The notes under the pieces were generated by a model. It saw only the letters and a list, made by a program, of their open reading frames with translations, did not search any database and was not told the DNA's origin. Below are positions 30,911 through 64,000 of a stretch of DNA of 64,000 nucleotides, piece by piece. The position numbers were made by a program, and so were the translations under genes. This DNA is from Opitutaceae bacterium (GTDB taxonomy: Bacteria > Verrucomicrobiota > Verrucomicrobiia > Opitutales > Opitutaceae). Within the stretch, counting starts at the first letter, position 1, and each line of letters opens with the position of its first letter. The stretch covers positions 62,001-126,000 of the forward strand of contig JAIXWF010000019.1 in NCBI GenBank assembly GCA_027482185.1. The letters run 5' to 3'.

Positions 30911-30919
30911 GGGACGGAC

Positions 30920-31018
30920 GGATTTGGATTTTCGATTTTTCCTTTTCGATTGAGGGATTCCGGTCGGCCAGAGGCGGGCTGAAATCGAAAATCCAAAATC
31001 GAAAGCTGAAAGCGGGAA
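30920..31018. repeat. Heptamer-repeat island with long inverted arms in the nusG-rplK gap
   Basis: The plus strand can be cut into near-heptamers: GGATTTG, GATTTTC, GATTTTT, CCTTTTC, GATTGAG, GGATTCC on the left (30920-30961), and GAAATCG, AAAATCC, AAAATCG, AAAGCTG, AAAGCGG on the right (30981-31015). The arms are complementary: 30923-30938 pairs perfectly with 30982-30997 over 16 bp. The AT-rich composition contrasts sharply with the flanking genes. It lies inside a ribosomal-protein operon, so the hairpin would be transcribed. Confidence 0.8.
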
Positions 31019-45110: not shown

Positions 45111-45112
45111 CG

Positions 45113-45136
45113 CGCCGCGCGCTCGAGCGCGCGGCG
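45113..45136 (+). terminator. Perfect 24-bp palindrome right after the cytochrome gene
   Basis: CGCCGCGCGCTC followed by GAGCGCGCGGCG starts 3 bases after the stop and makes a 10-bp stem with a TCGA loop. It is all G and C with no T-tract. Confidence 0.45.
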
Positions 45137-45146
45137 GGTCGGGTAT

Positions 45147-45229
45147 AGTTCGGAGTACGGAGTTTGGAGTTCGGAGTTCGATATCCGAACTCAAGGTTTG
45201 GGTTCTGGGTTCTGGATTTTGGGTTCCGG
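45147..45229. repeat. Heptamer-repeat island 1 between the cytochrome gene and sufE
   Basis: Two heptamer runs: CGGAGTA, CGGAGTT, TGGAGTT, CGGAGTT near 45151-45178, then GGTTTG, GGTTCTG, GGTTCTG, GATTTTG, GGTTCCG at 45195-45228. In between, GAGTTCGG and CCGAACTC form an 8-bp hairpin stem. The gap 45111-45437 otherwise shows no gene. Confidence 0.8.
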
Positions 45230-45318
45230 CCACGGCGCCGCGATTGGAAATCGGACATTGGTTCTACGGCATCGCGCCGCAGCAGCGTGGGACGGCGCCT
45301 GCGTTTCGCGCTGGGCCT

Positions 45319-45389
45319 GAGTTTCCGGTTTCCGGTTTCCGACTTCCGGTTTCGCAATCCGGTTTCCGGTCTTCGGTTTCCGGTCTTGG
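45319..45389. repeat. Heptamer-repeat island 2 between the cytochrome gene and sufE
   Basis: The heptamer GTTTCCG recurs in phase: GTTTCCG three times, then ACTTCCG, a GTTTCGCAATCCG variant, GTTTCCG, GTCTTCG, GTTTCCG. It is separated from island 1 by about 90 bp of ordinary GC-rich sequence that contains another text-like fragment (ATTGGAAATCGGACATTGG). Confidence 0.85.
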
Positions 45390-46714: not shown

Positions 46715-46810
46715 TTCCTCCGGACCAATTCCGTTTCTCCAATTTCCCCATCCTCCGCCTTCGGCTTCCCCGTTTATCACTTTCCCGATTTCCAGTTTTC
46801 CAATTTTCCT
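46715..46810. repeat. Pyrimidine-rich heptamer/octamer repeat island after tatD
   Basis: The plus strand shows CAATTCC, GTTTCTC, CAATTTC, CCCATCC, then a 15-base centre, then CGTTTATC, ACTTTCC, CGATTTC, CAGTTTTC, CAATTTTCC. The period is 7, drifting to 8. The repeats are direct, not inverted, unlike the nusG-rplK island. The strand is almost pure pyrimidine with single purine pairs. Confidence 0.7.
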
Positions 46811-61310: not shown

Positions 61311-61353
61311 GCGCCTAAAGCCGCCTGATCGCTGACCGCTGAGCGCAGAGCGC
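61308..61353. repeat. Short heptamer array between the hybrid kinase and rlmJ
   Basis: TGATCGC, TGACCGC, TGAGCGC, AGAGCGC occur in perfect phase (61326-61353), preceded by TGAGCGC (61308-61314) that includes the kinase stop codon. It lies between convergent genes; the array ends eight bases before the rlmJ stop. Confidence 0.7.
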
Positions 61354-61360
61354 TCCTCCT

Positions 61361-62261: not shown

Positions 62262-62762
62262 TCACGCGTCGACCGGAATCTTCACCACCGTCTTGCGCAC
62301 GAGGCCGCGCCCCGCCGCGGGCTGCAGGCCGGGCATGTGGCCGTCGACCGGGAAATACACCGCCGTCTCCCCCGCGCGGAACGGCAGCACCGCCGCGCCC
62401 GCGAAATCCGCGTAGACCACGAGGTCGCGTTCCGGGTTGTACGCGTCGCGTACGGCCAGGCGGGCAATGTCGGCAAACTCCATCAACTCCTCGCCGGCCA
62501 CGATCACCTGCACGTCGATCAGCCGGCGGTGCGATTCGAAGAAACCCTCGGGCCGCGGCTTCGACAAATAGACTTGGTCGATCGCGAACACGCCGCCGCC
62601 GAGTTCGCGTTTCGCCGTTTCCCCGGCCGCCATCGCCGCCAGCCGCTGTGCGGCGTCGGAGCCGGGCTGCAGCAACGACTCGACGTATGCGAAGGCGGCG
62701 GCGAAGCCCGGCGTGCGGGGCGCCTGGGCGCGCACGGTGGCGAAAGTTCCGATGATGGCCAT
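62262..62762 (-). CDS. YhcH/YjgK/YiaL family protein
   Basis: A 166-residue cupin-like protein of the YhcH/YiaL family, which assists sugar or sialic-acid catabolism in other bacteria. KRELGGGVFAIDQVYLSKPRPEGFFESHRRLIDVQVIVAGEE holds the family His and acidic residues (HRRLIDVQ), and AVYFPVDGHMPGLQP is the second signature. The ATG at 62762 was chosen; the open frame continues upstream but is not similar. It is divergent from the DUF4412 gene with 93 bases between. Confidence 0.9.
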   Translation of the reverse strand: MAIIGTFATVRAQAPRTPGFAAAFAYVESLLQPGSDAAQRLAAMAAGETAKRELGGGVFAIDQVYLSKPRPEGFFESHRRLIDVQVIVAGEELMEFADIARLAVRDAYNPERDLVVYADFAGAAVLPFRAGETAVYFPVDGHMPGLQPAAGRGLVRKTVVKIPVDA

Positions 62763-62855: not shown

Positions 62856-63533
62856 ATGAACTCGTTTCTCCGCCGTCTGCTCCTCGTTGCTTTGTTCGCC
62901 CCCGCCGCGGCCCTCGCCGCCGGTTTCGAGGGGCTCGTCGTCTTCAAACTCACCGAAGCCAAGGGCAAGTCCCAGGAAATGCGCTACCAGGTCAAGGGCT
63001 CGAAACTTCGCATCGAGCTGCCCGGCCAAAAGGAACTCGGCGGCATCATCATCGATCCCGCCAAGCGCGAATCCCTCATGCTCATGTCCGAACAGAAGAT
63101 GTACATGGTCATGAAACTGCCGGACGACAAAGGCCCGCAGGCCGGCAAGGCCGAGGACGTGAAACTCGACAAGACCGGCCGCACCGAGACGATTCTCGGC
63201 CGCAAGGCGGAGGAATTCGTCGCCACGTCCAAGGGCGAGAAAACCGAACTCTGGCTCGCCGAGGGCCTCGGCGCGTTTCTCTCGATGCCCGCGAATCCGA
63301 TGGAAGGCAAAGGCGCGGCCGCGCCCGGCTGGGAGCGCGCCCTCGCCGGCAAGGACCTCTTTCCCCTGCGTGTCGTGAGCCGCGGCAGCAACGGCAAGGA
63401 AACCTTCCGGCTCGAGGCCACCGCCATCACGCCCCAACCCCTGCCCGATTCCCTCTTCGCCCCGCCCGCCGGCTACCAGAAGTTCGACATGGGCGGCATG
63501 ATGCAGGGCATGGTCCCCGGCCTGGGCCGCTGA
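62856..63533 (+). CDS. Secreted DUF4412-like protein
   Basis: A 225-residue protein with a signal peptide (RLLLVALFAPAAALAAGFE). The mature part is beta-rich and opens with FEGLVVFKLTEAKGKSQEMRYQVKGSKLRIEL, followed by repeated IIIDPAKRESLMLMSEQKMYMVMKL, which matches the DUF4412 pattern of LolA-like/outer-membrane-carrier folds. The tail is methionine- and glycine-rich (FDMGGMMQGMVPGLGR). Its function is unknown. The ATG at 62856 fits the signal peptide. Confidence 0.8.
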   Translation: MNSFLRRLLLVALFAPAAALAAGFEGLVVFKLTEAKGKSQEMRYQVKGSKLRIELPGQKELGGIIIDPAKRESLMLMSEQKMYMVMKLPDDKGPQAGKAEDVKLDKTGRTETILGRKAEEFVATSKGEKTELWLAEGLGAFLSMPANPMEGKGAAAPGWERALAGKDLFPLRVVSRGSNGKETFRLEATAITPQPLPDSLFAPPAGYQKFDMGGMMQGMVPGLGR

Positions 63534-63545
63534 GTGTGCCGGAAC

Positions 63546-63619
63546 AGTTGAGGGTTGAGTGCTGAGAGTTGAGAGATCGGATGCTCCGCCTCTCGACTCT
63601 CAACTCAGTACTCTCAACT
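63546..63619. repeat. Heptamer-repeat hairpin between the DUF4412 gene and the DAC gene
   Basis: The left arm reads AGTTGAG, GGTTGAG, TGCTGAG, AGTTGAG, AGATCGG (63546-63580). The right arm reads CTCTCGACTCTCAACT and TCTCAACTC in phase (63590-63619). The two 30-base arms are complementary with about 23 matches of 30. The island is transcribed by read-through from either convergent gene. Confidence 0.85.
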
Positions 63620-63620
63620 C

Positions 63621-63650
63621 GGAAAAGCGGGCGCTCAGCGCCGCTTTTCC
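63621..63650. terminator. Hairpin overlapping the end of the DAC gene
   Basis: A perfect 10-bp inverted repeat (GGAAAAGCGG with CCGCTTTTCC, 10-base loop) includes the stop codon and last codons of the minus-strand gene. It lies between convergent genes, so it could end transcription in both directions, though it lacks a clean T-tract. Confidence 0.5.
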
Positions 63651-64000
63651 GTCAGCGGCAGCATCACGCCGCGGCGGAAGAGCGTCACCTGGCCCGTGCT
63701 CGACGAGACCACGATCGAGATGCAGTTGGCCGCGACGCTGATCGCCGCCGCCGCCGCGTGCCGGCTGCCGAGCCCGCTGGGCAACTCGTGCGTGCTGTCC
63801 GTCGCCTGGATCAGGCTGCCGGCGGATTCCACGACGCCGTCGCCGCGGATGATGAAGGCGCCGTCGATCGACGAAAACTCCTTCACCGTCTCGTCCATGA
63901 ACGGATTGAGGATGTTGCGGTCCTCTTCCTTGTAACCGAAAAACGGATTCAGCACGAGCGGCTTGGAGAGGGTGCCGACTTTCTCGTTGTCGCCGACGAC
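63635..64000 (-). CDS. Diadenylate cyclase (DisA_N) domain protein, 5' part outside the window
   Basis: The frame is open to the window end, so only the C-terminal 121 residues are visible. DAC motifs are present: FSSIDGAFIIRGDGVVESAG (the DGA loop) and GLGSRHAAAAAIS (the RH motif), followed by CISIVVSSSTGQVTLFRRGVML. The enzyme would make c-di-AMP from two ATP. The DAC domain is at the C-terminus, unlike CdaA and DisA, where it is central or N-terminal. The preceding visible part (VGTLSKPLVLNPFFGYKEED) is unassigned. Confidence 0.85.
   Translation of the reverse strand, partial: VVGDNEKVGTLSKPLVLNPFFGYKEEDRNILNPFMDETVKEFSSIDGAFIIRGDGVVESAGSLIQATDSTHELPSGLGSRHAAAAAISVAANCISIVVSSSTGQVTLFRRGVMLPLTEKRR

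Follow-up and report, generated by a model that had tools for sequence, protein, structure and literature searches.

Period-7 repeat islands between the genes of an Opitutaceae bacterium and a 148-bp MITE-like element with heptad ends

Degenerate repeat islands with a period of seven nucleotides are a genuine and recurrent component of the genome of this Opitutaceae bacterium, and they lie mostly between genes. One family of these, family A (unit GTTGAGA), belongs to a 148-bp sequence that is very probably a mobile, MITE-like transposable element, and we consider it reasonably probable that the islands in general are the arms of several families of short, protein-less inverted-repeat elements, together with decayed or single arms. 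The window analysed is a 64,000-nucleotide stretch with a GC content of 68% (C22:62001-126000) in the source genome G000, which comprises 6.43 Mb in 24 contigs; comparisons within the genus used 27 species, with G000 and its nearest relative G006 included, and aligned blocks of G006 are mostly 81-93% identical to G000.

The period-7 excess

Genes were called with a custom Markov caller, and islands were scored by autocorrelation at lag 7 (score of at least 14), with 10 dinucleotide shuffles as controls. The first-pass annotation of the window had described such islands and had proposed this comparison of intergenic with shuffled DNA as a check, and both the islands and the excess are clear. 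TRF reports period-7 arrays at positions 30923-30951, 30982-31004, 45147-45180, 45195-45226, 45321-45384, 61325-61354, 63546-63575, and 63590-63620; the intergenic DNA of the window has 5 lag-7 islands compared to a mean of 0.00 in the shuffles, with none in coding sequences, and a 400-kb stretch of G000 has 32 compared to 0.3, with 2 in coding sequences. Over 850 kb there are 93 intergenic islands at lag 7. The counts for the other lags are 18 (lag 9), 13 (lag 8), 8 (lag 12), 6 (lag 6), 3 (lag 10), and 0-1 (lags 4, 5, 11, and 13). The 93 lag-7 islands lie in 89 kb of intergenic DNA, and there are 20 lag-7 islands in approximately 761 kb of called coding sequence, so that islands are far from equally common inside genes; the earlier claim that they sit only between genes is correct for the window but not for the 850 kb, where those 20 are inside called coding sequences. 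The islands are, like the heptanucleotide simple repeats (STRR, LSSR), intergenic tandem 7-mers above chance.

One called gene of 2970 nt (G000 C19:19997-22966, loci L044 and L045) contains three heptad arrays of different families. A second type of intergenic array, with a period of about 8-9 (CCCATAGGTCCCATAGG, GTCCCATCC), is present alongside the heptads at L009:18363-18493, at L054:13381-13605, and near 62461 on G006 C1. We note also that contigs of both assemblies break within perfect AGTTCGG (or CCGGAGA) arrays: in G000 at the starts C1:4-87, C18:1-102, and C19:1-95 and the end C20:586239-586332, and in G006 at the ends of C65 and C121 and the starts of C69 and C105. The longest arrays are therefore probably under-represented in both genomes.

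A 148-bp element with heptad ends

BLAST comparison of 410 heptad-masked intergenic regions revealed a dispersed core that runs into GTTGAGA arrays. Copies of this family align end to end (nine over approximately 150 nt, and 16 in a second alignment), and 17 of the 19 two-ended copies in G000 and G006 are 147-149 nt long. The terminal inverted repeats are CCGRAYTCATGCAGTTGAG... and ...CTCAACTGCATGATYCCGG, and the end sequence is CCGRNNTCATGCAGTTGAG. Scanning the 27 species gave 36 matches in G000 and 33 in G006. All 31 candidates scored per genome were strong and at distinct places, so that 31 is a lower bound for each; there are weaker, partial matches in 11 other species, and none in 14. A 14-mer from the terminal repeat, with no more than two mismatches, has 149 matches in G000 and the reversed control has 7; among the 100 of these 149 sites that were listed, there are 23 pairs spaced 113-127 nt apart.

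The flanking 5-mers, of the type CTNAG, are identical in 7 of 19 copies, and in 9 if a 1-nt shift of the end is allowed; five copies differ at one base and five are unlike, leaving 10 that are non-identical even with the shift. Pairing the flanks of different copies gives identity in 9.9%, and the flanking 6-mers are identical in 2 of the 19. Two sites are occupied in G006 and empty in G000. In one, the element at G006 C1:64166 lies between two copies of CTGAG where G000 C19:65555 reads ...GGGGCGC-CTGAG-GCCGCCGCG, and in the other, the element at G006 C138:16452 corresponds to a single CTGAG at G000 C3:1237929. The single target copy at these sites argues for gain rather than loss, although precise excision could also produce it. 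Among the 8 loci with both flanks mapped in the two genomes, 2 are empty in one of them, 4 are occupied in both (one decayed), and 2 are of uncertain state; G006 C97 17327, a candidate third empty site, was left out of these numbers as not clean. Family A is thus a short dispersed repeat lacking coding capacity, with terminal inverted repeats, target duplications, and empty sites.

The location of family A relative to genes is likely to reflect its target. A gene 3' end lies within 60 nt of 19 of 27 copies, and by the rule applied none is inside a called gene longer than 600 bp. CTNAG encloses 19.2% of 639 stop codons and is present in 1.9% of random 29-nt windows, and because the target so often overlaps stop codons, it can explain the position of family A at gene ends with no function needed. 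Three copies carry or end in a common GAGCCTCTGAAAA / GAAGCTCTGAAAAA sequence (G000 C19:166901-167308 and C19:150650-151090; G006 L226 18683-18824), which might represent another small element that inserted into family A. A search for a plasmid relative of the element gave no match.

In the mechanism we propose, arms of about four heptads, 28-30 nt each, would form the ends of short dispersed elements. Family A, the part of the scheme for which movement is seen, is a 147-149 bp element that inserts at CTNAG, often on stop codons, duplicates 5 bp, and has moved since the source species and G006 separated. A transposase acting in trans presumably mobilizes it, and the repeated heptads may be iterated binding sites within the element ends, while a second process, replication slippage, would lengthen some arrays by whole units, above all in family D. 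No autonomous transposase copy with family A ends was found among terminal-repeat pairs up to 4 kb apart in 850 kb, or among the 100 of 149 terminal-repeat matches that were listed; pairs were judged by distance, and six genes inside some of them were inspected and encode TerC, transporter, TPR, HDOD, and peptidase proteins or are unnamed.

The islands of the window

The island at 63546-63619 is, from its sequence, most likely a shortened copy of family A (Table 1). It has a pair of family A terminal-repeat profiles at 63543-63619 and an element profile match at 63579-63534 (E=1.2e-4), and its likely extent is taken from flanking CTGAG and CTCAG sequences, which are non-identical; the CTGAG (63530-63534) contains the stop codon TGA of a plus-strand gene, and the CTCAG (63634-63638) the stop codon of a minus-strand gene. 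The remaining five islands may likewise be element ends, and the chance that every island in the window is of MITE-like origin seems to us slightly short of even. The composite at 45158-45387 matches the family B profile, which is itself partly heptad-driven. Complementary arms, as noted previously for several islands, are evident at 63546-63575 and 63590-63619 (30 nt, 77% complementary) and at 30923-30938 and 30982-30997 (16 nt, 100%). The island at 46715-46810 had been included as a period-7 island, but it scores at lag 8 alone; its G006 counterpart in the same gap is 115 nt longer and clearly 7-periodic, with 7/8 periodicity.

Table 1. Positions of repeat features within the window
Feature	Position	Strand	Basis
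GATTTTC hairpin, family F, in the nusG-rplK gap; present in G006 too	30923-31004	-	Inverted arms, gap comparison
AGTTCGG array, family D arm, after GC-rich palindrome downstream of stop codon	45147-45180	+	TRF
GGTTCTG array, family D, GTTTTGG subtype	45195-45226	+	TRF
GTTTCCG array, family B (CCGGAAA), Y-rich arm	45321-45384	+	TRF, family B profile
Degenerate TTTCCNN island, weak period 8 alone	46715-46810	+	Lag-8 score 15
Single 4-heptad arm, family C (AGCGGTC), between convergent genes	61325-61353	-	TRF
Probable shortened (99-nt) family A copy, between stop codons of two convergent genes	63535-63633		End-profile match
R-rich arm, 4 heptads AGTTGAG-GGTTGAG-TGCTGAG-AGTTGAG	63546-63575	+	TRF, inverted-arm comparison
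Y-rich arm, 77% complementary to 63546-63575	63590-63619	+	TRF, inverted-arm comparison

Unit families and the order of arms

The proposal of a separate unit for every island does not hold, as units recur at many loci and seven unit families are each found at multiple loci. Among 120 islands, the recurring canonical units are AACTCTC (16), AACTCCG (13), AAAGTTG (9), AATCCGC (7), ACCGGAG (6), AAACCGG (6), and ACCGCTG (5), followed by smaller groups and many singletons; apart from family A, we refer to families by unit as B (CCGGAAA), C (AGCGGTC), D (GTTCGGA/GTTTTGG), E (GATTGCG), and F (GATTTTC). A typical array has about four heptads (49 of 113 arrays are 26-33 nt), and within a family the arrays tend to have a common length, start and end phase, and even order of variants. 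For example, the order AGTTGAG-(A/G)GTTGAG-TG(C/T)TGAG-AGTTGAG-AG is common to the window island at 63546 and to C3 1334689 and C3 1233723. Common length, end phase, and variant order across loci argue against independent expansion of each island, and in family B an interior common to two loci and a recurrent outer unit, (G)ATAARAC, argue for copying.

Many arrays are paired. Within 250 nt, 43 of the 113 intergenic arrays in G000 have a reverse-complement partner (score of at least 14), compared to 9.1% in a control in which arrays were matched against the flanks of other arrays; the other 70 have no partner within that distance. The order of the arms is consistent: a G-rich arm has its partner to the right in 16 of 17 cases and a C-rich arm has its partner to the left in 16 of 17, with 9 paired arrays showing no clear skew, and in G006, where 36 of 107 arrays are paired, the corresponding numbers are 15/15 and 14/14; p-values for this polarity count both arms of a pair and are thus too strong. 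Arrays are present at 27 per 10 kb in convergent gaps, 11 and 14 in the co-directional gaps, and 2.9 in divergent gaps. Integron attC-like sites, prompted by the GTT/AAC heptads, were dropped as a candidate, since the arms are in the opposite order.

The unit AGTTCGGx3 occurs exactly in at least 114 stretches of genome contigs, with 80 loci listed. In these 80 loci from other records, all picked for holding AGTTCGGx3, 40 of 188 arrays are paired compared to 6.0% in the control; the partner lies to the right of R-rich arms in 11/11 and of G-rich arms in 12/14, and to the left of Y-rich arms in 12/17 and of C-rich arms in merely 12/21. Inverted pairs with the R-rich arm first are present in sequences whose records carry the names Omnitrophota, Pyrinomonadaceae, Nitrospirae, Kiritimatiellaeota, and Calothrix. 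We attach no special meaning to the recurrence of this one heptamer across phyla, as AGTTCGGx3 is present in 5 of 387 genomes of the phylum, including G000, and the reversed control in 3.

CTNAG was also considered as the target of all families and was not seen, although the test is weak even for family A: CTNAG is on both sides of 0/33 heptad pairs of families B-E, and of just 1/14 GTTGAGA/GTTGAAA pairs, suggesting either that the test is weak or that many short pairs are unlike the 148-bp element. None of the 28 G000/G006 indels listed is a clean presence or absence (an empty site) of another family. That families B-F arose as element ends is inferred more weakly, from their common build alone.

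Orthologous gaps and array turnover

Of 49 gaps aligned between G000 and G006, 16 have islands, and in 14 of these both species carry one. This comparison for turnover, proposed in the first-pass annotation, shows that the arrays often differ between the two, as with GTTGAGA and GTTGAAA (C3 1334664) or CTCTCAA and CTTTCAA (C19 48961). The nusG-rplK gap was compared across 21 species: G000, G006, G018, and G022 have heptad hairpins built from different units, G016 has an octamer array, and 16 have no marked island. The heptad hairpin at window positions 30911-31018 breaks up the ribosomal operon between nusG and rplK, and different heptad hairpins follow rplK in G018 and G016 (loci L235:8952-9123 and L245:4325-4474).

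Copy number also differs between the species, with 9 and 7 perfect AACTCCG units at C19 48066, and G006 has a 69-nt AGTTCGG expansion; to account for the long AGTTCGG arrays, dispersal has to be supplemented by slippage. It had been argued that a mechanism sets the period, rather than a sequence spreading. The second half of this is contradicted by family A, which spreads (148-bp copies, CTNAG duplications, and two empty sites), but the first half has merit, as several unrelated families all have period 7 and some arrays change in copy number between species, and something therefore favours seven. Transposition alone leaves the period shared by unrelated families unexplained.

Alternative explanations

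The arrays could be products of local replication slippage, with a 7-nt preference from the replicative polymerase and homogenization in place, and with the inverted arms generated by template switching at quasi-palindromes. The differences in copy number between orthologous arrays, the AGTTCGG expansion, and the contig ends in perfect arrays are all as expected from this, and heptamers are reported to outnumber other long simple repeats in many bacteria, with polymerase slippage and a polymerase footprint put forward to explain this (Mrazek 2007, cited in PMC4679880 and PMC4692102). However, slippage does not readily account for length, end phase, and variant order being the same at several loci of a family, for non-heptad flanks and cores common to loci, for the fixed order of arms, or for uniform 148-nt family A copies with duplicated flanks and empty sites, and we think it unlikely to be the general explanation. 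Still less likely is selection of the hairpins as bidirectional RNA elements at 3' ends, either terminators or stabilizers of mRNA ends, in which a G-rich arm comes first on either strand between convergent genes. The 27 arrays per 10 kb in convergent gaps compared to 2.9 in divergent ones (p 2e-10) and the fixed arm order are consistent with such a role, and the RNA fold of one family A copy is better than those of its shuffled versions (z -2.6). On the other hand, the covariation term is about 0 in 16 family A copies, with a double change in 1 of 30 predicted pairs; some islands, in the window at 45111-45136 and 63620-63651, are adjoined by GC-rich palindromes; the nusG-rplK gap lacks an island in 16 of 21 species; and the location of family A at 3' ends is already explained by its CTNAG target. 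An Rfam search of the window found two tRNAs alone at gathering score and nothing at the islands, and a conserved RNA role for family A is not supported.

Elements of the REP/BIME type mobilized by RAYT (Y1) transposases resemble the islands in being intergenic inverted pairs in convergent and co-directional gaps (PMC3733652), and the island-bearing species G016, G018, and G022 have 11-16 Y1 matches. However, G000 and G006, in which islands are most numerous, each have a single Y1 match, while other species have up to 23, and just 3 arrays lie in 30 Y1 loci; neither the species scan nor these 30 loci revealed a linked Y1 transposase. Duplications of 5 bp at the target are also not expected of Y1 enzymes. 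We regard a REP/BIME origin as very improbable, and return to short inverted-repeat elements as the preferred source of the islands.

Relationship to known repeats

Family A closely resembles the bacterial MITEs (Correia/NEMIS, RUP, ERIC), which the Delihas review (PMC2229807) describes as shorter than 200 bp and protein-less, mostly intergenic, bounded by long inverted ends and a duplicated target, and giving a stable hairpin transcript. It differs in that its ends consist of degenerate heptads, it targets CTNAG, in many cases at a stop codon, instead of TA, the elements are not AT-rich, and a related insertion sequence was not found here. The closest architecture is that of the 'global regulator binding sites' of Geobacter metallireducens, where 3-5 tandem 7-8-mers make up a site, sites on opposite strands form pairs with variable spacing, and one genome has several classes; the sequences are different, IHF/HU binding is proposed, and the portion of that report concerning these sites describes neither target duplication nor an empty site (PMC2700814). 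REP/BIME elements share inverted pairs, intergenic positions at 3' ends, and several families per genome, but are described as palindromes of 20-40 bp that carry GTAG/CGTC tags and go together with RAYTs (PMC3733652), whereas the arms here are 28-30 nt of heptads and no Y1 link is seen.

The heptanucleotide repeats of cyanobacteria (STRR) are an apt comparison, as had been suggested, in the sense of a resemblance. The TAACTGA (PMC4679880) and GGGNATC (PMC4692102) repeats share with the islands a period of 7, a mainly intergenic location, and copy-number turnover; in Xanthomonas and Nostoc, heptanucleotide repeats are reported as few between divergent genes, as here, and some in Xanthomonas as inverted pairs. 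According to the parts of these reports that characterize the repeats, they are mostly exact, have no conserved core, and are not shown to move, in contrast to the islands here. Our literature searches found no paper joining heptad arrays with transposon ends, no match for Verrucomicrobia with heptamers, and nothing matching MITEs at stop codons or heptamer transposon ends.

Implications

Reports of heptamer repeats in bacteria go back decades without naming where they come from, and their excess is already known. A widespread class of mini-transposons with ends of about four degenerate heptads, recognized by a transposase that reads 7-nt-phased sites, might underlie much of this excess, although we consider so broad a role improbable. 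The CTNAG target provides an example of an element steered to gene ends simply because target and stop codon overlap, and the family A result warns against reading such islands by default as regulatory sites. With a heptad family forming the inverted ends of a moving element, the question of the period becomes a testable matter of end recognition.
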